DNA of 64,000 bases from an uncultured Pseudomonadota bacterium. GTDB lineage: Bacteria > Pseudomonadota > Alphaproteobacteria > RF32 > CAG-239. Below the pieces are notes generated by a model. The model had not been told where the DNA came from. It did no database searches and saw only the letters and a program-made list of their open reading frames with translations. Where the stretch lies: positions 1 to 64,000 of the forward strand of contig CASFNK010000060.1 of NCBI GenBank assembly GCA_949295995.1, given 5' to 3'. Below are positions 2,163 through 34,202 of the stretch, piece after piece. The position numbers and the translations under genes were made by a program. Every line of letters starts with the position of its first letter. The first letter of the stretch is position 1.

Positions 2163-3530
2163 ATGTCAGAATATTTGAAGCAACTAAAATCTTATATTAA
2201 AGATATTGCCAAATTAGCTTTGCCAATTACTACGGCATTTGTGGCTATGGGCTTGATGGGTATTGTTGATACAATGATCGTCGGTAATTATAATACCGAC
2301 CAATTGGCCTATATAGGTTTGGCAAATTCGGTTTTTGTCGTGCTCTTTACTATTCCTATCGGCTTACTGCAAGGTGTACTGATTAAGTCTTCACAAAAAT
2401 TCGGGGCTCATAAATTCCAATCAACCGGTAAAATATATCACGAAGGACGCAAATATTCGTTTCTTTTAGCTACTATTTTTACTTTGCTTGGTATTCAAGG
2501 TGAAACCATTCTTCGCCTTCTCGGACAAGATGATGATATGGTCAAACATGGTGGCGAAGTGTTACGCGTGTTTGTGTTTTCCATTCCCTTTATTTTAATG
2601 TATGTTAATGCCAATTTCTTTTTACAGTCTATTCGCAGACCTTATGTCGGTATGTATGGTATTATTGCCGCGAATGTCTTGAATATCATTATCAATCCGA
2701 TTTTGGTGTATGGAAAATTTGGTATTCCCGAATTAGGAGCTATCGGTTCGGCAACATCAACTTTGATTGTACGTATCTTTTTGGCGGCATATATCCTGTT
2801 TTATATTCATAGAATGCGTAAAAATCCAAAACTTAATAAGCGTTTTGGTTTGGATAGAAGTTATGGTACTTGGTGGAATGATAGTGTCAGGACTCGTAAA
2901 ATCGGTTATGGTATTGCCATTATGACCATTGCTACAAATGGTTCTTTCTCTTTGGTGAGTACTTTTGCCGGTTGGATGGGACAACATACCATGGCTACTT
3001 TTGTAATCATGATTAATGTCAGTACTTTGTTATTTATGATTTGTTTTTCTATCTCTCAAGCAACGTCTATTGTTGTGGCTAATGCGTTTGGGCGAAAAGA
3101 CCGTCAAGGAATTTTAATCGCGACCAATGCCGGATATGTCATCTCTCTAACGACTATTCTTACTCTTATTGCCATTTTACATACTTTTCCGAATCAGGTC
3201 TTTGGTATTTTTACTAATGATGAAAGCGTCATTAGTGTTATCAATGGTTTGCTCTTCTATGTGCTGGCGGATTTGTTTATTGATGCCCTGCCCTTAAATA
3301 TAAATGGAGCATTGAATGGTCGCGGAGACGTTAAAATTCCAACCATTAATCAAGTTATTTCGTTTTTGGGTGTGCGTGTTTGGGCTTGCTACTTCTTTGC
3401 CTTTACATTGGGGCTAGGATTGAAAGGTTTACCTATCGGATTGGCTTGCGGAGGATTGTCTTCTCTTATTCTTAATACGTTGCGCTTTGGCTATCTTATC
3501 CGTCGTGATAAAATTGAAGGTTTGCGATAA
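2163..3530 (+). CDS. MATE family multidrug/Na+ antiporter (first copy)
   Basis: The 455-residue inner-membrane protein has about 12 hydrophobic segments in two similar halves, with the MATE signature GLMGIVDTMIVGNY in the first helix pair. The family exports cationic drugs, dyes or metabolites using Na+ or H+ gradients, but the substrate cannot be read from sequence. A GAGGG site precedes the ATG at normal spacing. It lies 60 bases downstream of hydE and could be co-transcribed, although I see no functional link. It is clearly different in sequence from the second MATE protein at 32675-34021. Confidence 0.88.
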   Translation: MSEYLKQLKSYIKDIAKLALPITTAFVAMGLMGIVDTMIVGNYNTDQLAYIGLANSVFVVLFTIPIGLLQGVLIKSSQKFGAHKFQSTGKIYHEGRKYSFLLATIFTLLGIQGETILRLLGQDDDMVKHGGEVLRVFVFSIPFILMYVNANFFLQSIRRPYVGMYGIIAANVLNIIINPILVYGKFGIPELGAIGSATSTLIVRIFLAAYILFYIHRMRKNPKLNKRFGLDRSYGTWWNDSVRTRKIGYGIAIMTIATNGSFSLVSTFAGWMGQHTMATFVIMINVSTLLFMICFSISQATSIVVANAFGRKDRQGILIATNAGYVISLTTILTLIAILHTFPNQVFGIFTNDESVISVINGLLFYVLADLFIDALPLNINGALNGRGDVKIPTINQVISFLGVRVWACYFFAFTLGLGLKGLPIGLACGGLSSLILNTLRFGYLIRRDKIEGLR

Positions 3531-5467: not shown

Positions 5468-6649
5468 TTATTTGGCTATAAGCTCTTTTACTCTTTCTTT
5501 TAATTTTTCCAAAATGTCTGATTTTGGTGTATATTTTTCTTCAAAAGGTTCAACCGTGGTCCAGCCCAAGTCTTCATATACGGCTTGAATTTGTTTTATG
5601 ACGCCTGGTTTCCAACCATACGAGCCAAAGCACATCGCTGTTTTATTTTTGGGAGCTAAACCATGCATATAAGTTACAAAAGCAGCGACTCTTGGGAAAA
5701 GTTGATTGTTTAAGGTCGGGTTTCCGATGACAACATATTTGGCATCTAAAAAGTCAACCATTACTTCTGAAACATTTTTTACCGATAAGCAATGTTTTAC
5801 AACCGGAATGCCTGCGGCTTGGAATTCTCCCATAATCGTTTCAGCCATGGTTGCAGTTGCACCCCACATGGTGTCATAAACAATTACGGCTTTTCCTTCA
5901 TTCTTGCCGCTAGCCCATTTGGCATAAGCGTTCAAAATCGCCGATACTTCTTCTTTGCCAGACCAGATACAACCATGAGACGGTGCAATCATTTCAATAT
6001 CCAACCCCATTGAGCCTGCCGTATCCAAAGCCTTTTCAGCCTGAGCACCGTATGGGAACAAAATATTGGCATAGTAGCTCTTTGCTTCTTGCATAACGCA
6101 ATCAAACGGAGCATCTTTTACAAACAAGGCATCGGTAGCGTAGTGTTGACCGAATCCGTCGTTAGACAAGAGAAGTTTGTCTTCCTTAACATAAGTCATC
6201 ATCGAATCCGGCCAGTGCAACATCGGCGTGGTCATGAAAGCCAAGGTTCTTTTACCGATATTTAAGGTATCGCCTGATTTAATGATTTGATAATTCCAGC
6301 CAGTAGTATCAAAATGGGCTTCCAAAGCCATTTTTCCGGCAGAGTTGGTAACAATTACTGCTTGCGGAGCTAATTTCATTAATTCAGGGATATTGCCGGA
6401 GTGATCCATTTCAACGTGGTTGACAACAATGTAGCTGATTTTGCTGAAATCGACCACGCTCTTAATACGAGCAATGTTTTCGTGCGACATATAATATTTT
6501 ACGCCATCAACCAATGTGATTTTATCATCCATAATCAAATAGGCGTTATAGGTCGAGCCGTGGGGTGTGCTGTAACCGTGGAATTCTTTTAAGTTCCAAT
6601 CCTTAACCCCTACCCAATAGATATCTTTTTTGATTTCAACCGCTTTCAT
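5468..6649 (-). CDS. Flavodiiron protein (oxygen/NO reductase, FprA type)
   Basis: Flavodiiron proteins reduce O2 to water, or NO to N2O, in the cytoplasm of anaerobes and receive electrons from rubredoxin-like partners. The 393-residue product has an N-terminal metallo-beta-lactamase-like di-iron domain with H-x-E-x-D-H (H78, E80, D82, H83) and further ligands in MLHWPDSM and PSHGCIW. A C-terminal flavodoxin domain begins near VIVYDTMWGATATMAETI. This is the normal two-domain size. The start at 6649 has AAAGGAG just upstream; the ATG at 6718 does not. The gene is divergent from the PerR-like regulator and rubrerythrin, with operator-like palindromes in the gap, so peroxide- or iron-responsive control is likely. 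Confidence 0.92.
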   Translation of the reverse strand: MKAVEIKKDIYWVGVKDWNLKEFHGYSTPHGSTYNAYLIMDDKITLVDGVKYYMSHENIARIKSVVDFSKISYIVVNHVEMDHSGNIPELMKLAPQAVIVTNSAGKMALEAHFDTTGWNYQIIKSGDTLNIGKRTLAFMTTPMLHWPDSMMTYVKEDKLLLSNDGFGQHYATDALFVKDAPFDCVMQEAKSYYANILFPYGAQAEKALDTAGSMGLDIEMIAPSHGCIWSGKEEVSAILNAYAKWASGKNEGKAVIVYDTMWGATATMAETIMGEFQAAGIPVVKHCLSVKNVSEVMVDFLDAKYVVIGNPTLNNQLFPRVAAFVTYMHGLAPKNKTAMCFGSYGWKPGVIKQIQAVYEDLGWTTVEPFEEKYTPKSDILEKLKERVKELIAK

Positions 6650-6701
6650 GGTCTTCTCCTTTAATATTGTTAAAATGTTGTTATATACATAATCCCTAAA
6701 A

Positions 6702-6720
6702 TTATGATTGACAATCATAA
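6702..6720. promoter_or_regulatory. 19-bp palindromic PerR/Fur-type operator
   Basis: TTATGATTG-A-CAATCATAA is a perfect inverted repeat with a one-base centre. It lies in the gap between the divergent flavodiiron and PerR-like genes. Its AT-rich 9-1-9 shape resembles Fur and PerR boxes. It is the best candidate for control of both transcripts. Confidence 0.7.
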
Positions 6721-21123: not shown

Positions 21124-21161
21124 TTTCTTGTCGACGAATTTTTAACCATGGTGGCAGATTG

Positions 21162-24100
21162 ATGAAAGTCAAATTTTTTAACTATAAGAGCTTTGTTACG
21201 TATGTAACGATTGCAGCCTTTTATATGGCTACGACTCTGTCTGCCGTTGCTAATCCCTTACGTCCTATCAGTTTGGCTCAGATGTATAGTCTGGCTTCTC
21301 AAGGTAATGTTCGCGCTTTGCGTGCAGCCGTACAACGCGGTATGAATATTGATGCGACTGATAGATACGGAAATACGGGACTCTGCCATTCCATTTATCA
21401 ACGTAATTATACTGCCTATAATGCTTTTCATGCTGCCGGTGCGAATCCAAGACACCCTTGTATTCAAAATATTCCACCAGAACAATATGACTATTTTATG
21501 GCCTCAAGCCGTGCAACACCTGTTACGGCTACACCTCGTGAGGCTTATAAAGAGTTTGCCGATGGCGAATTTGTCTTTTCAACCACAACTTGGGTTCTGG
21601 GCGGGCTTCTCTTAGCCGGAGGTGTTGCTGCTCTGGTTTTTGGCGGCGGCGGAGGCGGCGGAGGTCATCATTACTTTTTTCCTCCTGCTGAAGATGTTTT
21701 TACACCTACTGATGATAGTTTAGGTGCTTTTGTCGGTACGAATATTCCTCAGAATCCTCTTTCTACCCCCTATGTCCCTGTTAAACTTTTGGGCGGTGTT
21801 AATACTCAAGATTTTACTCTGGATAATGATTCTCAAATCTTGGTAGATGGAGAACAAAAAAATCTTTCTGAAATGATTAATTTTAACGACTCTGTATTAG
21901 ACTATACTCCTTACCTGCAAGTCGGAATGAAAGCTATTGACGGAAAACAAGTTGTTAACGGCGAAAATCCTTTAATCGGTTCCGATGTCGGAACGACAAT
22001 TACCCTGATGAACAATACTGTCGGATTAGCCGCTTTACACAATTCCGAGGCTATTAATAATAATACGCTTAAAATTATTGCTCAGAATGGCTCTATCGGT
22101 ATGATCGGAAGTGATCAATCCGTTATTACAAATAGTGGAAATATTGATATTTCCTTTAAAGGAACTACCGTTAATGACCAAGTAAACGCTATGTATGCCG
22201 ATACTTCTTCTAAGGCTATCAACGAGGGTAATATCACCGGAAACGTTACCTCTGATAGTGCTGCCGGTACTTTAATCGGTATGCAAGCAAGATTAATTAA
22301 TCAAGTTCAAAATCCTGCGGCTACTCTTCCTGTGCAATTGCAGAATAATAAAAATATTGAGCTCAGTGCTACCGCAAATAATAACTCCACCATTTCAAAC
22401 TCTCTCGTCGGTATGGGAAGCTATCTGGAAAATGATTTTCTGGAAGGTACAAAATTAGTGCGTCGTACCGGTTATGTTGAAATGACAAACAATGGACAAA
22501 TTGATTTAAATGTTAATTTGGGGGATAGCGGTACTTATGATACTTCTCAAACGGATTTATTGACCGGAACAGGTGGTATTATTGGTATGCGTGCCGATGC
22601 TCATACACAAGCTTACAATAAAGGCGATATTAACTTAACTATTGCTCCTGAAAGCGCTACTTCCATTGATAAGGCCCATGCGGGAATGTTGTCTGTACAT
22701 GGCGGAACTATTACCAATAGTGATACAATTACCGTAAACGGTGGTATCGGCGGTTATGGAATGCTCGGCATCAGAGGTGAAGGTACAAACTCCGAATTTA
22801 ATACTCTCAATCCTTCTTTAACCAATGAATTCGGTGCTACAATTACAGTCAATAGTGTTGACGGGTTTGGTATGGCTACTCGTCATGGGGGAAGTGTTAC
22901 AAACTTAGGCGATATTATTATGGGTGAAGATAGTACCGGTTTGCAAGTAAATGCCGGTACAGGTCTTAACAGCGGCACTATTGCTCTTAATAATAGCGGT
23001 ATCGGTATGGCTATTAAAAGAAATACAACTTCCGAGGCCGGAACCGTTAATAACGCAAGCACTGCCTCTATTACAAATGATGAAGGTGCTACAATTAATA
23101 TACTTAAGGCTAATGGCGCAAGCGGTATGTTTATTGAAGACGGAAAAGCTATTAATAACGGTACAATTAATATTGATGGCTCAACATCCACTTCAACAAC
23201 TTCTTCCTACGGAATTCAAGCCGAAAATGGTGGGGTTACGAATGCCGGTACAATTGATATGGATGTCTTAATTTCCGGTGGAGAACAAGCTTATGGTATT
23301 TATGGTGGAAATGCCACCACCGTTACGAACTCCGGTGAAATTAATTTTTCTCAACAGGGTATCGGAACTTATACAACCAGTGGAACAAATACAAACTCCG
23401 GTGATATTATAATGAACGGTATCGGAAGTACAGGTATGTCTTCCGACAGCGGTGCTATTACTAATACTACTGACGGAACAATTACTTTGGTCAGCGGTAC
23501 AGGTATCCAATCCAATACCGGACAAGTTATAAACCAAGGAAATATTTCTGTTACGAACGGAACAGATTCAATCGGTATTACGACTTCTAGTAATATTCTT
23601 AATGATGAAAATGCTCAAATTTCAATTACCGGTGCAAATTCTACGGGTATTTTAATCGGTGAAAACGGAACTGCTATCAATAATGGGGAAATTACGTTAA
23701 ACAGTAATCAAGACAGTACTGAAAATTATGGTATGCAATCAGAAGGCGGAACAAATGCTTCCATTACAAATAACGGAACGATTGCTCTTAATGGTTATAA
23801 TTATGATGTTACTAAAGAAGTCGGTTATGGTATGTATATTGTCGGAGGACAAGCAACCAACAATAGCACTATCTCAATTGATGAAATGTATGGCTATGGT
23901 ATGGCTTCTGATGCCGGGAAATTAACTAATAATGATACCATTACATTAACTAATGGCGGTTATGGCATCCAAAGTCAAACGGGAAGTGTCTTTAATAGTC
24001 AAGGTGCTACAATTACAATTACGGGAACCCCTTCTCTGTCAAGTTCTTATGGTATCGGTGTCGAAACAGGAACAGCTCAGAATTCAGGAACTATTAATGT

Positions 24101-27100
24101 TTCAGGAAACTCTGAAAACACAAATAATGCCGTTTATGGTATTTATGTAAACGGAGGTAACGGTATCAATAATAGCGCCATCAATATGTATGCCAATAAT
24201 TCTTACGGCTTATACGATGCTGCCGGTGGAGCTATTACAAATACATCTGCTCTTGGTCAAATTGCTGAGATTAACTTATATGGCAATAACTCAACCGGTA
24301 TGCAAACAAACAGCGGAAAAGCTGAAAATTTTGGTACGATTAATGTTGGAGTTCAAGATGAAGACGGAACCGTTCAAGGTGGCTTAAATTCTACCGGTAT
24401 GGTTGCCAATACAGGGGGTACCGCTTTTAATACAGGAGTTATAAACCTCAACGGTGAAAATTCTACAGCAATGTATGCTGACGGCGGTACAGTTCAAAAT
24501 ACTATTAACGGTGAAATCTATGTCAACGGTAACAACAGTACCGTATTTAAAACCAGTAACGGCGGTACAGCCATAAATGATGGCGAAATCATTGTTAATG
24601 CCGATAATTATGAGTTATTTTCTTCTACTAATGAAAATGGTGGAAATTTTATCAATAATGGCGCTATTAGTGCTGATTCTTCCGATTCAAAGATTATTGT
24701 GGCAGGAAATGGAACCAATATCAATAACTCTGGAAATATTGATTTAACCGGTAATAACAGTTATATAATGTACGTTCAAGGAACAGGTACCGCTACAAAC
24801 TCAGGTACTCTTACTATTAAAGACGGCAGTAATAATTCGTACGGTATCTATATGGATGATACAGCTTCCGGAAATGTTGTTAATGAAGTGGGTGGAAATA
24901 TTAATGTTAACGGAACAAGTTCCGCCGGAATGTTTATTGCTTCAACTCTTTCTACTGAAGGTATTACAAATGAAGGAACAATTACGGTAACCGGAGCTTC
25001 CTCTGTCGGTATGGGATCTTCGGCCAGTGCACTTATTACAAATTCCGGAACAATCGATATGCAAACCGGTAGTGATGCTATTAATGCTGCCGGAGGAACT
25101 ATATCTAATACATCTACGGGAATTATTACAACAGCAGAAAATTCAGCAACAAACGGTATTAATGTTACCAGTGGAAGTACGGCGGCGACCATAACTAATG
25201 ACGGTACAATCTCCATTAACGGAAGCGGAAACGCTATTATGGCCGATTTGGCTAATGTTACCAACAGCAGTACTGGTAGTATTTCTGTTAATGGAGGTTA
25301 TGGTATTTTCTTAACAAGCGGTAGCGTTTCTAATGAAGGTCTGATTACGGTTTCCGGTAATGGTGGAACAGGTATTGCAAATGGTGGTTCTGTCGTAAAC
25401 GGACAAACTGGCAGAATATCCGTTTTAGGTGATAATGCCAAAGGTATGAATGTTGCAACTGGTGGTACGGGAACAAATAATAACACGATTACGGTTAGTG
25501 GTAATAATTCTTCAGGAATTTATGTTAGCGGCGGTTCGGCTGATAATTTAGGAACCCTAACCATTAGTGGTGATGGTTCTTCAGGTTTTTATGTTACCAG
25601 CGGTTCGGGATATAACCAGTCAACTATAAACGTAAGTGGCGAAAATGCAATTGGTATGACCGCCAGTAACGGTTCTGCTGGGAATGGTAAAGAAATTCAA
25701 AATGAAGAAACCCAAGAATCAGAACTTGTTTCAGGAAATATTCAAATCACCGGAACGGGTGGCATTGGTATGAATCTTCTGGGTAGCGGAAGTATCTTAA
25801 ATAACCAAAGCTCTTCCATAACAATTAACGGAGCTCAAGGTATTGGTATGTTGTCTGCTGGTTCCGGAACTGCTACAAACCAAGGAACTATTTCTTTAGT
25901 GAACGAAAATGCTATCGGTATGAAAGCCACTCAAGGAAATGCTACCAATTCTTCACTGATTAATGTTAATGGGGCTAATTCATTTGGTTTATATGCAGAT
26001 GGCGGCTCTGTTACCAATACCGGAACTTTAGATTTAAATGCAAATAATGGGGTCGGTATTTTGGTGAATAACGGTTCAGGTACCAATAGCGGAACTATTG
26101 ATCTTTCATCTCAAGGTGCTATTGGCTTACAAGCAAATAACGGCACTGCAACCAATACCGCAAATTTAACCGTTAACGGAACGGGTGCCGTTGGTCTATA
26201 TGCTCATGGCGGTACAGTTAATAACAATAATGCAACGATTGGCTTGTCTGATGGTGGGAAAGCAGCAATTTGGGTGGATGCCGGAACTGGTAATAATAAC
26301 GGAACTATTAACGTAACCGCGGGAAATGCAAGTGGTATGTTGGTTGCGGGCGGAAATGCTTACAACAAAAACACAATTAATGTATCTGCTAATGGTTCTT
26401 ACGGAATGTCTGCATCTGCCGGAGCGGCTACAAATAACAGCAATATAAATGTTACCGGGGCCAATGCCGTCGGCATGGGAACATCAGGAAGCGGTAGTGC
26501 AACTAATTCAAATACCATAACTGTTTCTGTTGCTACAGGTGTAGGTATGTTTGCAGACGGAGGTACTGCTACCAATGCAAATACAATTAATCTTGAGACA
26601 AGCGGAGCTCAAGGTATGGTTGCTGACGGTGGTACAGCTACTAATACAGGAACTATTACTGCCTCTATCGCTGGTACTTTGGCAATGTATGCTAACGGCG
26701 GTACCGTTATCAACGGCTCAACAGGAAAAATTAACGGAAGCACTTCGTCTCAATATCTTATGTTGGCTGAAAATGGTGGAACAGCTACAAACCAAGGAAC
26801 CTTATCCTTTAACGGAACCAGTGCCGCTATGCAGGCAAATACAAACTCAACCGTCAATAATACCGGAACGATTAATGTTACAACAGGTAATAATTCTTCA
26901 GGTCTGATTGCTAACGGCTCCGGAGCTCAGGCTTCAAATAACGGAACTATTACGGTGCAAAACGGAAATGGTTATGCTTTACTGGCTCAAAATTGTGGAT
27001 CCGTTGTAAATGCCGCCAATAAAACTATTCAATATCAAACAGGCGGAAATGCCATTCAAGCTAATAGCGGTTCAAGTGCAACCAATAGCGGAAACGTTAC

Positions 27101-30008
27101 CGTAACAGGAAGCGGAAATGCTATGGTTACAAACGGAGGCTCTCTAACTAATGATACAACCGGTGTCATTAACCTCTCTTCAAACAATATAAAAGGTATG
27201 ATAGCTAATGGTGGTACTGCCTTAAATAACGGCACTATAAACGCAAATACCAATAGTAATACTTTGGCTATGTATGCTAATGGCGGTACTGTAACGAACG
27301 GAACGACCGGAAAAATTAACGGAAGCACTTCGTCTCAATATCTTATGTTAGCTGAAAATGGTGGAACAGCTACAAACCAAGGAACCTTGTCTTTTAATGG
27401 AACTAATGCCGCTATGCAAGCAAATACAAATTCTTCGATTAATAATGCTGCAGGAAGTATTACTGTTAATAGTAGCGGGGCTTCAGCAATGATTGCCAAT
27501 GGTTCGGGGGCAAAAGCTACTAACGGAGCATCTATCACGGTTAATTCCGGTGCCGGTACAGGTTATGCCTTACTTGCTCAAAACGGTGGCTCTGTTACCA
27601 ATACCGGTAATATTCAATATTCCGGTACAAGTGCTGCCATTCAAGCAAATGCAGGTTCTACGGCTGGAAGTACGGCAGGAAGTATTACCATAAGCGGTAA
27701 TGGTGCTTCTGGCATAATTGCCAATGGTTCGGGGGCAAAAGCTACTAACGGAGCATCTATCACAGTTAATTCCAGTGCCGGTGCAGGTTATGCATTACTT
27801 GCTCAAAACGGTGGCTCTGTTACCAATACCGGTAATATTCAATATTCCGGTACAAGTGCCGCTATACAAGCAAGTGCAGGTTCTTCTGTAAATAGTTCAT
27901 CCGGAAGTATTACCATAAGCGGTAACGGTGCTTCTGGTATAATTGCTGATGGTTCGGGTGCCACGGTTTCCAATGGTTCCTCTATCACGGTTAATTCCAG
28001 TGCCGGTGCAGGTTACGCATTACTTGCTCAAAACGGTGGCTCTGTTACCAATACCGGTCATATTCAATATTCCGGTACAAGTGCCGCCATACAAGCAAAT
28101 GCAGGTTCTACGGCTCAAAATAACGGAACAATCAGTGTAACCAGTGGTAATGGTAAAGGAATGGTCGCCTCTTCTACTGGTGCAACAGCAAAAGTAATTA
28201 ATTTATCTGGTGGCATAATAAATGTTTCCGGTTCTAATGGTGTTGGTATGTATGCTGATGGTTCAGGTGCTCAAGCTGTTAACCTTGGTACGATTAATAT
28301 TAATACGACCTCTTCTACGGCGTACGGTATGCAAGCTATTAACGGTGGTTCGGTAGAAAATGCCGGAACAATTAATATGATGTCTGGTGCTCAAGGTATT
28401 GGTATTTATGTCGGCTCCGGTTCAAAATTCTATAACAATGCTTCCGGAAAAATTATTTTTGCCGGTGGAGCTACACAATCCGGTGCTATTACGGCAGATA
28501 CGTCATCAGGAGATGTAACAATTTGCGAATCGGAAGATAGTTGCAATAATAAGTTTATTTATCTGGAACAAGGAGCAACGTTAGTAAATAGCGGTACCAT
28601 AGTAGCCAGCAATTCCTTGAGTCGTAAGAGTTTCGGTGATGGTGATGTTATTTTGACTTCTACAGCTAAAATGATTGCTGAAGATGAAATTACGGATACT
28701 TATAGTGTTGCCAGTGATGCATCTATGTTAGCTCAGGGACAAAAAGATGTATATGTTAATGAGCAAGCATTGCAAGCTAATAAAGTTAGTGCAACTTTTA
28801 TGTCGGTATCTCCAATGTGGAAAGTATCGACTCGAGACAGTTCAAACTCTGCAGATGCTCCTTCTGTTTCAACCTCCGATGACAACAAAGATGATATGTC
28901 TGAAGCTCATCCTGATAGTAATGTGGAGGGTGATGATTCTAACACGCAAATTAAAGATATTGTTTATAGCAGAGTTGCTTTTAATAATTTAATAGATAAT
29001 GCCTCTCAGGCTGCTTATCTCGAATCTAACTACGCTCTTCGTAACTCAATTTATGATGGTATGATTGTAGCTTCCAGCCAAGAAGAATTCAACCGCGCCG
29101 TTCAAGAAGGACTAGGCTTAGACTTAATTCCTAACTTTGCTAAGCAAAATATGGATATTATGCGTAATGTCAACCGTCAAATTAATAGTGCTGTCTTTAA
29201 CAATACTGATGAGGCAGAAACAAGAACAACAATCGGTTATGATTTCTTTGACCGCGAACAAGACGGATATAATGGTTTGAGTGGTTACGAAGATGAAGCC
29301 CACAGCGGCTATGCTCTGTTTGACCGCAAATATAATGAAAACTTCCGTTATGGTATCGGTGCAAGTTTTACAAAGTATGAAAGCGACTATGACAATGGTT
29401 CTGAGCGTGATGAGGTTATCGCCCAAATTATGACGCCATTGTTGTTTGAAGCCGGAAACACTCAATTCTTATCAATGCCTAAAATTGGTATGGGTTGGGG
29501 TGAATATACTCGCTATGCTCAAGGCAAAGAGTATAAAGCTGATACCAGAAATTATTACTATGGTATCAATAATGAACTGCGTCATGATGTAGATATGGGT
29601 ATTGTTACTTTAGAGCCTGTTGTCGAATTTAATGTTTTGGGCTTCTATCAAAATCGTACAAAAGAGAATATTCGCGTTGAAAGCAATAATAATGTATCGG
29701 TTGAAGGTGGTTTGGGTTTATATGCTAAGAAGAGTTTTAGCTTAACTGATGAAGACGAACTCAAAATTCGCTTAGGCGGAACTTATTATCATGAGTTTAA
29801 TAACCCATACCAAGCTCCTAAAGCAGGTGTGGTTGGATTACTGGGTTCTTATCAAATGGATAGCTATGATGCTCAAAAAGACAGAGCCGTTTTATCTGCT
29901 CGTTTTGATTACAAGCGTGGTAAATTCAATTTCTATCTGGAAGGCAATAGCTATATAGAAGATGATGATACTTACTCCATCAATGCCGGTTTGACGTATG
30001 CTTTTTGA
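21162..30008 (+). CDS. Giant type Va autotransporter with ankyrin head and repeat passenger
   Basis: The 2948-residue protein is predicted to be displayed on the outer membrane. In order it shows: a signal peptide (cleavage near AVA-NP, residue 30); an ankyrin-like stretch (about 39-100: SLASQGNVRALRAAVQRG, then IDATDRYGNTGL, later AAGANP); a hydrophobic segment (142-160) and a run of eight Gly; a passenger of about 2,400 residues built of roughly 20-residue beta-strand repeats of the type NNGTINV-x-GNNS-x-GM-x-A-x-GG; a helical linker near 2600-2680; and a C-terminal beta-barrel (about 2690-2948) ending in Phe. It is most likely an adhesin. ATG at 21162 was chosen; a TTG lies one codon earlier. 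Its DNA repeats suggest it evolves by internal duplication. Confidence 0.9.
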   Translation: MKVKFFNYKSFVTYVTIAAFYMATTLSAVANPLRPISLAQMYSLASQGNVRALRAAVQRGMNIDATDRYGNTGLCHSIYQRNYTAYNAFHAAGANPRHPCIQNIPPEQYDYFMASSRATPVTATPREAYKEFADGEFVFSTTTWVLGGLLLAGGVAALVFGGGGGGGGHHYFFPPAEDVFTPTDDSLGAFVGTNIPQNPLSTPYVPVKLLGGVNTQDFTLDNDSQILVDGEQKNLSEMINFNDSVLDYTPYLQVGMKAIDGKQVVNGENPLIGSDVGTTITLMNNTVGLAALHNSEAINNNTLKIIAQNGSIGMIGSDQSVITNSGNIDISFKGTTVNDQVNAMYADTSSKAINEGNITGNVTSDSAAGTLIGMQARLINQVQNPAATLPVQLQNNKNIELSATANNNSTISNSLVGMGSYLENDFLEGTKLVRRTGYVEMTNNGQIDLNVNLGDSGTYDTSQTDLLTGTGGIIGMRADAHTQAYNKGDINLTIAPESATSIDKAHAGMLSVHGGTITNSDTITVNGGIGGYGMLGIRGEGTNSEFNTLNPSLTNEFGATITVNSVDGFGMATRHGGSVTNLGDIIMGEDSTGLQVNAGTGLNSGTIALNNSGIGMAIKRNTTSEAGTVNNASTASITNDEGATINILKANGASGMFIEDGKAINNGTINIDGSTSTSTTSSYGIQAENGGVTNAGTIDMDVLISGGEQAYGIYGGNATTVTNSGEINFSQQGIGTYTTSGTNTNSGDIIMNGIGSTGMSSDSGAITNTTDGTITLVSGTGIQSNTGQVINQGNISVTNGTDSIGITTSSNILNDENAQISITGANSTGILIGENGTAINNGEITLNSNQDSTENYGMQSEGGTNASITNNGTIALNGYNYDVTKEVGYGMYIVGGQATNNSTISIDEMYGYGMASDAGKLTNNDTITLTNGGYGIQSQTGSVFNSQGATITITGTPSLSSSYGIGVETGTAQNSGTINVSGNSENTNNAVYGIYVNGGNGINNSAINMYANNSYGLYDAAGGAITNTSALGQIAEINLYGNNSTGMQTNSGKAENFGTINVGVQDEDGTVQGGLNSTGMVANTGGTAFNTGVINLNGENSTAMYADGGTVQNTINGEIYVNGNNSTVFKTSNGGTAINDGEIIVNADNYELFSSTNENGGNFINNGAISADSSDSKIIVAGNGTNINNSGNIDLTGNNSYIMYVQGTGTATNSGTLTIKDGSNNSYGIYMDDTASGNVVNEVGGNINVNGTSSAGMFIASTLSTEGITNEGTITVTGASSVGMGSSASALITNSGTIDMQTGSDAINAAGGTISNTSTGIITTAENSATNGINVTSGSTAATITNDGTISINGSGNAIMADLANVTNSSTGSISVNGGYGIFLTSGSVSNEGLITVSGNGGTGIANGGSVVNGQTGRISVLGDNAKGMNVATGGTGTNNNTITVSGNNSSGIYVSGGSADNLGTLTISGDGSSGFYVTSGSGYNQSTINVSGENAIGMTASNGSAGNGKEIQNEETQESELVSGNIQITGTGGIGMNLLGSGSILNNQSSSITINGAQGIGMLSAGSGTATNQGTISLVNENAIGMKATQGNATNSSLINVNGANSFGLYADGGSVTNTGTLDLNANNGVGILVNNGSGTNSGTIDLSSQGAIGLQANNGTATNTANLTVNGTGAVGLYAHGGTVNNNNATIGLSDGGKAAIWVDAGTGNNNGTINVTAGNASGMLVAGGNAYNKNTINVSANGSYGMSASAGAATNNSNINVTGANAVGMGTSGSGSATNSNTITVSVATGVGMFADGGTATNANTINLETSGAQGMVADGGTATNTGTITASIAGTLAMYANGGTVINGSTGKINGSTSSQYLMLAENGGTATNQGTLSFNGTSAAMQANTNSTVNNTGTINVTTGNNSSGLIANGSGAQASNNGTITVQNGNGYALLAQNCGSVVNAANKTIQYQTGGNAIQANSGSSATNSGNVTVTGSGNAMVTNGGSLTNDTTGVINLSSNNIKGMIANGGTALNNGTINANTNSNTLAMYANGGTVTNGTTGKINGSTSSQYLMLAENGGTATNQGTLSFNGTNAAMQANTNSSINNAAGSITVNSSGASAMIANGSGAKATNGASITVNSGAGTGYALLAQNGGSVTNTGNIQYSGTSAAIQANAGSTAGSTAGSITISGNGASGIIANGSGAKATNGASITVNSSAGAGYALLAQNGGSVTNTGNIQYSGTSAAIQASAGSSVNSSSGSITISGNGASGIIADGSGATVSNGSSITVNSSAGAGYALLAQNGGSVTNTGHIQYSGTSAAIQANAGSTAQNNGTISVTSGNGKGMVASSTGATAKVINLSGGIINVSGSNGVGMYADGSGAQAVNLGTININTTSSTAYGMQAINGGSVENAGTINMMSGAQGIGIYVGSGSKFYNNASGKIIFAGGATQSGAITADTSSGDVTICESEDSCNNKFIYLEQGATLVNSGTIVASNSLSRKSFGDGDVILTSTAKMIAEDEITDTYSVASDASMLAQGQKDVYVNEQALQANKVSATFMSVSPMWKVSTRDSSNSADAPSVSTSDDNKDDMSEAHPDSNVEGDDSNTQIKDIVYSRVAFNNLIDNASQAAYLESNYALRNSIYDGMIVASSQEEFNRAVQEGLGLDLIPNFAKQNMDIMRNVNRQINSAVFNNTDEAETRTTIGYDFFDREQDGYNGLSGYEDEAHSGYALFDRKYNENFRYGIGASFTKYESDYDNGSERDEVIAQIMTPLLFEAGNTQFLSMPKIGMGWGEYTRYAQGKEYKADTRNYYYGINNELRHDVDMGIVTLEPVVEFNVLGFYQNRTKENIRVESNNNVSVEGGLGLYAKKSFSLTDEDELKIRLGGTYYHEFNNPYQAPKAGVVGLLGSYQMDSYDAQKDRAVLSARFDYKRGKFNFYLEGNSYIEDDDTYSINAGLTYAF
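26700..27410 (+). repeat. Long direct repeat within the passenger, about 581 bp apart
   Basis: A near-identical block starting GGAAAAATTAACGGAAGCAC occurs at about 26727-26820 and 27308-27403, with related sequence to the left of each (TTGGCAATGTATGC, TTGGCTATGTATGC). Only scattered third-position changes separate the copies, so the duplication is fairly recent. Confidence 0.75.
27481..28125 (+). repeat. Tandem array of three 225-bp units in the passenger
   Basis: The segment around GCTCAAAACGGTGGCTCTGT recurs at exactly 225-base steps (27576, 27801, 28026), giving three 75-residue units that differ by a few bases. A diverged relative lies near 26990. The array keeps the reading frame and is a likely site of copy-number change. 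Confidence 0.8.
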
Positions 30009-32070: not shown

Positions 32071-32102
32071 CAAAAAAAGGCACTTTAATGTGCCTTTTTT
32101 TA
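32071..32102. terminator. Bidirectional terminator after the Cys-rich operon
   Basis: AAAAAAAGGCAC pairs with GTGCCTTTTTT around a 6-base loop. It serves the plus-strand operon and runs up to the stop codon of the convergent histidine phosphatase gene. Confidence 0.85.
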
Positions 32103-32657
32103 CATTCCTATTGTAAAATATTCGCAATTATCAAATTTATGCTCTTGACCAAACATATCTTGATAGAGGTTAAACATTAGGGCTCCGTGGGTGGCAATGC
32201 CGATTGTTTGATAGCCTCTTCTTTGACTCTCTATGACAATATGCTCCAGAGTTCTTTTGCCTCTGTCTAGTGATTGTTTGACACTTTCTCCGCCGGGGAC
32301 ATGGACATTCATCCAATTCGGGTTAGATGGATCATGAATAATGTTAAAAATATCGGCATATTTTTGATGCGCCTCTTCTGATGACATGCCTTCGGCTTCG
32401 CCAAAATGGACTTCCTCTAAGCCCTGCATAATGATAACCGGAATATTACAAATATCTGCTACAATTTTGGCAGTTTCTTTGGCTCGTTTCATTGAGCTGC
32501 AATAAATTGCATCTAAATGCTCTGATTGTAGCTTTTGACCTAATTGAGCGGCTTGCGAGCGCCCCAATGTGTTTAACTCGATATCAACCCCTGCCCCTTG
32601 GACAATGTTTTTGACGTTGCCGTCCGTTTGTCCATGCCGAAATATATACAGTTTCAT
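32100..32657 (-). CDS. Histidine phosphatase family protein (phosphoglycerate mutase-like)
   Basis: The 185-residue cytoplasmic protein has the RHGQT catalytic motif at residues 7-11, where His8 is the phospho-acceptor. CSSMKRAKETA supplies further phosphate ligands, EEVHFGEAEG the acid, and ATHGALM the second His. It is a phosphatase or mutase of the cobC/GpmB type, and the substrate cannot be told from sequence. GGAGAATAAG precedes the ATG. It follows the MATE gene by 17 bases on the same strand, so both share the leader at 34022. Confidence 0.88.
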   Translation of the reverse strand: MKLYIFRHGQTDGNVKNIVQGAGVDIELNTLGRSQAAQLGQKLQSEHLDAIYCSSMKRAKETAKIVADICNIPVIIMQGLEEVHFGEAEGMSSEEAHQKYADIFNIIHDPSNPNWMNVHVPGGESVKQSLDRGKRTLEHIVIESQRRGYQTIGIATHGALMFNLYQDMFGQEHKFDNCEYFTIGM

Positions 32658-32674: not shown

Positions 32675-34021
32675 TTATGCCGCTACCAAGTTCTTCGGTT
32701 TATTGCGTCTGAGCAAAGTTAAGGCGATTACAACCGTTGTCAGTTCTGCCATCGGAATACTAATAAAGACGCCTTCCATATCAAAGATTTTCGGCATTAA
32801 CGTCAAGAACAATATCGGGAAAACCAGACTTCGCGATAAGGCTACAACCGCAGACTCTAGCGGGCGTTCGATGGCCGTAAAATATGCCGATAAGATGATA
32901 CTGACCGAGCTAAACAGAAATGCCCATTTTAATAAATCAATAAACTCTAACGCCAGTTTCTTGGTTGCATATTCTTGTTCGCCTAAGAAAAAGTTGACCA
33001 CGATTTCAGGAGCAAAGAGCAAACTGGCAAAAATTACTAAGCCCAACCCTGCCCCGCTAATGAGCGATAATTTCAAAAAACCGGCAATACGAGATGATTT
33101 TTTTGCACCATAGTTAGTACTAATCAGCGGTACGATAGAATCTCCGATGCCATAAGCAATCAGCGTACCAAACAACAACGCATAGTTTATTACCGTATAA
33201 GCGGCAACGCCAACCGTGCCTAAATGCTTAATCATGATAAGATTGAAAATAAATGTGGTAATACCGATTGAAAATTCATCAACCAATTCCGATACACCGT
33301 TATAGCAGGCTTTGAGCAAATCTCCCCAATGTCCAAGTCCTCTGAAATAAAGACGCAAACCGGAATGCTTGGAGAAAAAGTGGCTAAAGATTATAAAGAA
33401 GGTTGCGGCTTGTGAAATACCCGTTGCCACAGCCGCACCGATGACGCCTAAGTGAAGTTCAAATATGAACAGCCAATCTAAAAAGATATTTACACCGGTT
33501 CCAAACAATATCGCTCCAAAGGCTAAAATCGGTCTTTGCTCAACACGGGCAAAAACAGATAAGCAATAAGAGCCTAAGAAGAAAGTAAAGAAGATTGCCA
33601 CATATTGCAAATAATCTGCCGAGAGCGGCCTTAACTCCTCATTAGCTCCTAAAAATTCAACAATTTGATGCGGCATTAAAACACCTAATGTCGTAACTAT
33701 TAAGCACAAGATTATATTGCAAAAGATGACTTTGCTGAAAATATAAGAGGCATGACGATAATTTTGTTCACCAATAAATTTGGCACAAATGACGCTTCCG
33801 CCCGTGCACAACATAATGCCTAACCCCATAAGGAGTGAAAATACCGGTAAGACAATATTAATTGCCGCTAAGGCTTTGGCTCCGGCATAGTTACCAATAA
33901 AGAAAGCATCTATCAACTGTGCTGAAGACAGAGCCAAAATACCCAAGACATTCGGGATACAATATCTTAAAAAGAGAGGTTTCGTTTTTCCGTTAACAAT
34001 ATCAAATTTACCATTCTGCAT
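32675..34021 (-). CDS. MATE family efflux transporter (second copy, MepA-like)
   Basis: The 448-residue protein has about 12 membrane helices and the MATE pattern in helix 1-2 (LSSAQLIDAFFIGNYAG) with its repeat in the second half. It is more like the MepA/DinF branch than the protein at 2163. The substrate is unknown. Its ribosome site AGGTGG lies close to the ATG and takes part in the closing stem of a folded leader, suggesting that expression responds to a ligand or signal. The histidine phosphatase gene follows 17 bases downstream. Confidence 0.88.
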   Translation of the reverse strand: MQNGKFDIVNGKTKPLFLRYCIPNVLGILALSSAQLIDAFFIGNYAGAKALAAINIVLPVFSLLMGLGIMLCTGGSVICAKFIGEQNYRHASYIFSKVIFCNIILCLIVTTLGVLMPHQIVEFLGANEELRPLSADYLQYVAIFFTFFLGSYCLSVFARVEQRPILAFGAILFGTGVNIFLDWLFIFELHLGVIGAAVATGISQAATFFIIFSHFFSKHSGLRLYFRGLGHWGDLLKACYNGVSELVDEFSIGITTFIFNLIMIKHLGTVGVAAYTVINYALLFGTLIAYGIGDSIVPLISTNYGAKKSSRIAGFLKLSLISGAGLGLVIFASLLFAPEIVVNFFLGEQEYATKKLALEFIDLLKWAFLFSSVSIILSAYFTAIERPLESAVVALSRSLVFPILFLTLMPKIFDMEGVFISIPMAELTTVVIALTLLRRNKPKNLVAA

Positions 34022-34024
34022 AAT

Positions 34025-34113
34025 CCACCTGAAAGCTGTTAATCCATAGGGTTCAATCTCCCGTTCCCATACAGAAACGGGCGGTCAACACTATAGACAC
34101 ACACCGCTTTAGG
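34025..34113 (-). promoter_or_regulatory. Candidate riboswitch: folded leader of the MATE operon
   Basis: Read on the minus strand, CCUAAAGC (34113-34106) pairs with GCUUU-C-AGG (34036-34028) as a closing stem. The AGG of its 3' arm is part of the Shine-Dalgarno site. Inside are a hairpin GCGGU / ACCGC (34107-34103 with 34085-34081; it shares bases with the closing stem), a stable 8-bp hairpin CCCGUUUC / GGAACGGG (34081-34060), and a possible pseudoknot of loop CUAUAG (34096-34091) with CUAUGG (34049-34044). The layout is that of a junction riboswitch controlling translation. It does not match any class I can recall, including the ykkC guanidine classes often found near efflux pumps. Confidence 0.5.
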
Positions 34114-34173
34114 CTGAAAATAAAAATCTAAAAATATCGAATTTCGCATGATTGCACCATTTTTTCTTCTTTT

Positions 34174-34202
34174 ATAGTAGCATTTTTTTGCTGTTTCGTC
34201 AA
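34174..34202 (-). promoter_or_regulatory. Sigma70-type promoter of the MATE operon
   Basis: On the minus strand TTGACG (34197-34202) and TACTAT (34174-34179) are 17 bases apart. Transcription from it would give a leader of about 145 bases, enough to hold the fold at 34025-34113. Confidence 0.65.

Follow-up and report, generated by a model that had tools for sequence, protein, structure and literature searches.

A structured leader with a short open reading frame upstream of a MATE efflux operon in an uncultured alphaproteobacterium: a candidate translational attenuator

Described leaders of efflux genes and the present locus

Most known cases of drug pumps controlled through a leader peptide come from cultured Gram-positive bacteria. 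In translational attenuators of the ermC/cat type, arrest on a leader peptide frees a masked Shine-Dalgarno (SD) sequence. The erm mechanism is described in PMC5118997. In Bacillus subtilis, the small ORF BmrB precedes the multidrug transporter genes bmrCD, and its translation is required for their induction by antibiotics (PMC4191407). Attenuation by an upstream open reading frame (uORF) has also been described for a DUF1127 gene of Sinorhizobium meliloti, which carries a structured, tetracycline-responsive leader (PMC12218461). The guanidine-IV riboswitch (GGAM-1), which includes a Rho-independent terminator, is found in some copies before MATE genes (PMC7736828).

The locus discussed here lies in the window, i.e. 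the whole 64,000-nucleotide stretch of DNA that was analysed, which is part of a 1.6-Mb draft genome. Its minus strand encodes a MATE family efflux transporter of 448 aa at 32675..34021 (Pfam MatE, 1.4e-36; the nearest NCBIfam entries, PRK09575 and FepA, are both under their own cut-offs) and, as second gene of the operon, a 185-aa protein of the histidine phosphatase superfamily, branch 1, at 32100..32657 (Pfam 1.9e-40). A preliminary description of this DNA had named an efflux pump plus a phosphatase, and Pfam bears this out. An alcohol/aldehyde dehydrogenase fusion gene is divergent from the operon. The sigma70-type promoter TTGACG-17-TACTAT of the same description is present at 34174..34202 (minus strand). 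The promoter scan by itself is at chance level (10 sites vs 10.7 expected) and not significant; boxes and spacing recur at the equivalent place in a second genus, where inspection of the sequence reveals TTGACG-17-TATATT, likewise spaced by 17 nt. The leader comprises ~145 nt (about 34166-34022, minus strand) and includes the SD of the MATE gene, AGGUGG (34025..34030, minus strand).

We propose, with about an even chance of being right, that translation of the MATE/histidine-phosphatase operon is attenuated by this leader in a uORF-dependent manner. Like the ermC/cat systems, the leader has a uORF that covers the 5' arm of a hairpin predicted to mask the SD of a resistance-type gene; its peptide is, as judged by family searches, unrelated to theirs in sequence, and arrest is proposed here by analogy. 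With bmrCD it shares a short ORF before a multidrug transporter, stem-loops inside and after this ORF, and a control proposed to act via the progress of ribosomes on it (PMC4191407). BmrB, however, acts on a transcription terminator, whereas the MATE leader has its SD in a hairpin and contains neither a terminator-like site on the minus strand nor a U run after the central hairpin. Moreover, bmrCD is an ABC transporter of a Gram-positive bacterium, while the present pump is a MATE protein of an alphaproteobacterium, and no sequence relation to BmrB was seen. The S. meliloti case is similarly an alphaproteobacterial uORF in a structured leader, but it concerns transcriptional attenuation, a different mechanism, and a gene unrelated to MATE. 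Finally, two hairpins and a possible pseudoknot recall guanidine-IV, from which the leader differs by having no Rho-independent terminator and no covariance-model match.

Fold of the leader and its homologues

The core of the leader (34119-34022) has a predicted folding energy of -37.2 kcal/mol (z = -4.1), which none of 200 shuffles equalled. The minimum-energy fold is a single long interrupted hairpin, in which CCUAAAGC (34106..34113, minus strand), the 5' strand of the outer stem, pairs over the SD with GCUUUCAGG (34028..34036, minus strand), and whose tip is formed by the strong central hairpin CCCGUUUC...GGAACGGG of nine pairs (34060..34081, minus strand). In between, CUAUAG (34096-34091) has its 3' partner CUAUGG at 34044..34049 (minus strand). 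All the elements of the preliminary description could be located in the minus-strand sequence: its closing stem takes in part of the SD, as GCUUUCAGG overlaps AGGUGG at 34030-34028, and its very stable hairpin is the central one. Its loop pseudoknot between CUAUAG and CUAUGG, in contrast, disappears in the minimum-free-energy fold, which nests both strands inside the long hairpin. The MATE SD is less accessible than the SD sites of most genes in the window; three other genes score lower still.

Among the genomes of the order that were examined, a close MATE orthologue occurs in only four, namely the window's own genome, two of the same genus (G035 and G045, MATE protein identity 96%) and one of another genus (G010, 75%). 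The comparative set thus amounts to four leaders, three of them close. The order of MATE, phosphatase and divergent dehydrogenase is the same in all four genomes, and the phosphatase adjoins the MATE gene throughout (identity 93/86/40%). Within the genus, leader DNA is 91-93% identical, but since the remaining intergenic region is about 88% identical as well, leader identity alone says little. G010 is the informative comparison. A separate observation concerns this background: fourfold sites of the MATE gene are only 47-49% identical between the window's genome and G035/G045, against about 88% for the intergenic DNA, which is unusually conserved.

The cores of all four leaders have z values of -2.9 to -4.8, and the SD AGGUGG is identical in each of them. 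In the central hairpin, which in G010 reads CCCAUCUUUA..UAAAGAUGGG, nine of nine pairs are kept across the four genomes with four double-sided changes (0/500 shuffles). For the long SD hairpin, 91.1% of cells are paired and seven pairs are doubly changed, and neither value is reached in any of 500 shuffles; slid controls pair 25-49% of cells. Compensatory changes in homologous MATE leaders, the check on which the preliminary description had made its stems depend, are therefore found in both hairpins, albeit in four sequences. We take the covariation of the long hairpin as support rather than proof, given the small alignment, from which the structure itself had been derived.

Another explanation is that the hairpin sequesters the SD constitutively and so just keeps the operon low or ties its expression to temperature or to translation in general, the uORF playing no important part. 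Part of the SD is predicted to be paired in each of the four leaders, and the covariation backs the hairpin itself. The core stabilities of -30 to -39 kcal/mol at 37 C are far above what is expected of a thermometer melting near this temperature, and the marginal stability near growth temperature that marks RNA thermometers was not found. In addition, a conserved 5' block and a positioned ATG with its SD would go unexplained. We consider this explanation unlikely.

The preliminary description had read the leader as a riboswitch. In such a reading, a translational riboswitch of a new class would have the GCGGU/ACCGC hairpin as aptamer, its loop would pair downstream as a pseudoknot, and a ligand would open or close the SD hairpin. 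The helix exists as described (34107-34103/34085-34081, within 34081..34107, minus strand), with a conserved loop GUGUNUNNCNAUAGUGU, and it competes with the long hairpin: folds containing it are 9-15 kcal/mol less stable in total, the figure for the window sequence being 15. In G010, three of its four pairs are kept and one is doubly changed, so that each of the two competing helices shows compensatory change. The middle helix CUAUAG/CUAUGG is broken in G010; there, the loop of the hairpin equivalent to GCGGU/ACCGC, AGUGUUGAA, is exactly complementary to UUCAACACU beside the SD and pairs with it instead. Conserved, covarying structure upstream of the gene (in four sequences) and the guanidine-IV riboswitches before some MATE genes (PMC7736828) also speak for this idea. 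Against it, the SD is the sole conserved sequence in the 3' half of the leader, and no riboswitch or other family of Rfam 15 matched the core of the window's leader (E up to 10) or that of G010 (E up to 5), nor did the leaders of G035 and G045 match at the gathering threshold. The search that had been suggested thus gives no support to a known riboswitch class; the preliminary description had likewise seen no resemblance to the guanidine, fluoride, purine or Mn classes. Two matches to enterobacterial sRNA models (E 0.046 and 0.35) lie in AT-rich flanks outside the core and were taken as chance.

The upstream open reading frame

What the preliminary description overlooked is a uORF at 34039..34149 (minus strand), which encodes the putative 36-aa leader peptide MRNSIFLDFYFQPKAVCVYSVDRPFLYGNGRLNPMD and has a GGUG SD 5 nt before its ATG. 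In both genera, a GGUG lies upstream, and the ATG is in frame with the conserved block GYNGUGUNUNNCNAUAGUGUYRA and precedes it by exactly 42 nt. When the 5' part is shuffled with its dinucleotides preserved, an open frame with ATG and SD arises in 2.2% (G010) and 1.1% (own leader) of cases; requiring the 42-nt spacing as well lowers this to 0.065% and 0.04%, respectively. Codons 1-26 vary at seven sites within the genus, and five of these are synonymous, where 2.4 would be expected (P = 0.044). Beyond codon 26, changes replace the amino acid, the frame is shifted in G045 and has already ended in G010, as one would predict for a peptide of which only the first part is important. Between genera, the picture is less favorable: over the 27 codons, the three codon positions have changed about equally often (13/12/13), and the absence of a third-position excess is evidence against strong selection at the peptide level. 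Taken together, SD, ATG and frame position kept in two genera and a modest synonymous bias suggest that the leader contains a translatable short ORF.

Could the ORF instead serve to make a small protein with a function of its own, such as a pump subunit or a regulator, and not act via its translation? Start and frame are kept in two genera, but length and C-terminus vary (36 codons in the window's leader and in G035, 27 in G010, a shifted frame in G045) and the peptides share only 33% identity between genera, which makes this very improbable. No family match was obtained for the peptide in Pfam, NCBIfam or PHROGs. Coupling through termination of the uORF was likewise considered and rejected: the stop codon precedes the MATE ATG by 17 nt in the window, but falls within the MATE gene in G045 and within the central hairpin in G010.

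The position of the uORF relative to the fold is informative. The 5' arm of the hairpin lies inside it, at codons 13-26, and the folding model thereby gives the leader a characteristic feature of attenuators, an apparently SD-masking hairpin whose 5' arm is read as codons. The conserved block sits on this coding arm; its 3' partner varies yet still pairs. Such one-sided conservation would be more readily explained if the block acts as codons or contacts the ribosome than if it forms part of a two-sided ligand pocket, and codons explain the block just as well as an aptamer does. Hence, what stands of the earlier riboswitch claim is a conserved, structured, SD-sequestering leader, backed by covariation and by a gene order shared with a second genus; the riboswitch itself is disfavored by the lack of an Rfam match, the uORF and the one-sided conservation, and we consider it rather unlikely. 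A combination is also conceivable, in which a pseudoknotted aptamer of a new ligand-sensing class overlaps the translated leader ORF and the MATE exporter would be under the joint control of ligand and ribosome; this appears quite unlikely to us.

Proposed mode of control and distribution

That the uORF keeps its SD and start codon at the same place in both genera speaks for a leader-peptide attenuator. In this mechanism, the long hairpin would mask the SD at rest and MATE translation would be low. A ribosome might then slow down or arrest on the leader peptide at about codons 13-26, near the conserved residues A-V-x3-S-V-x2-P-x-L (codons 15-26), possibly triggered by, for example, a translation-targeting compound that the pump exports. 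By occupying the 5' arm, the stalled ribosome would release the SD, and pump and phosphatase could be made. We infer this release as the switching step; in a simple ribosome-footprint folding model, no stall position common to the four leaders clearly freed the SD. To our knowledge, the peptide shows no recognisable arrest motif.

If the attenuator holds true, leader-peptide control would reach a further pump family and a further lineage, with a MATE pump of an uncultured gut alphaproteobacterium, and the leader peptide would offer a handle on the natural inducer of the pump. The case also shows that a riboswitch-looking leader is best examined for a short ORF first. In the titles and abstracts by which the literature was judged, an incomplete coverage, no description of MATE leader-peptide attenuation was evident.

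The element appears to be confined to this one gene in four genomes. Among 126 genomes, a degenerate DNA pattern made from the conserved block matched exactly in the four known leaders and nowhere else; matches with two mismatches are common, as they are for a reversed control, and were set aside as chance. A covariance model (R1) run on the order and a class sample returned the four leaders and weak matches only, the latter being simple or repeated hairpins, with no copy before another gene, which argues further against a riboswitch. A leader-peptide profile found only the four leaders convincing across the order (next match E 0.004), and the search for MATE homologues in class and phylum samples yielded no relative as close as E 1e-80. 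The element is also absent from the leaders of distant MATE paralogues, of the MATE gene on contig C20 and of the first MATE gene of the window. This last gene (2163-3530, plus strand) follows an upstream ORF (1023-2102) at a distance of ~60 nt.

Some further observations were made along the way. In the alphaproteobacterial genome G488, the hairpin CCCCTTCCTGCTTAGGAAGGGG is repeated in both orientations at several places (L075 and L076, around 1501-1570 and 1694-1784) and is perhaps a dispersed palindromic element. The window also contains a repetitive, Asn/Gly-rich ORF of 2949 codons (21159-30008, plus strand) that is adhesin- or autotransporter-like, with no Pfam match in its first 947 residues; a similar repetitive ORF is found in G010 in the same place beside the MATE-phosphatase pair (L051, 4493-6340, minus strand). 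At 5468-6718 (minus strand), an ODP-type metallo-beta-lactamase fold together with a flavodoxin domain identifies a flavodiiron-type protein.
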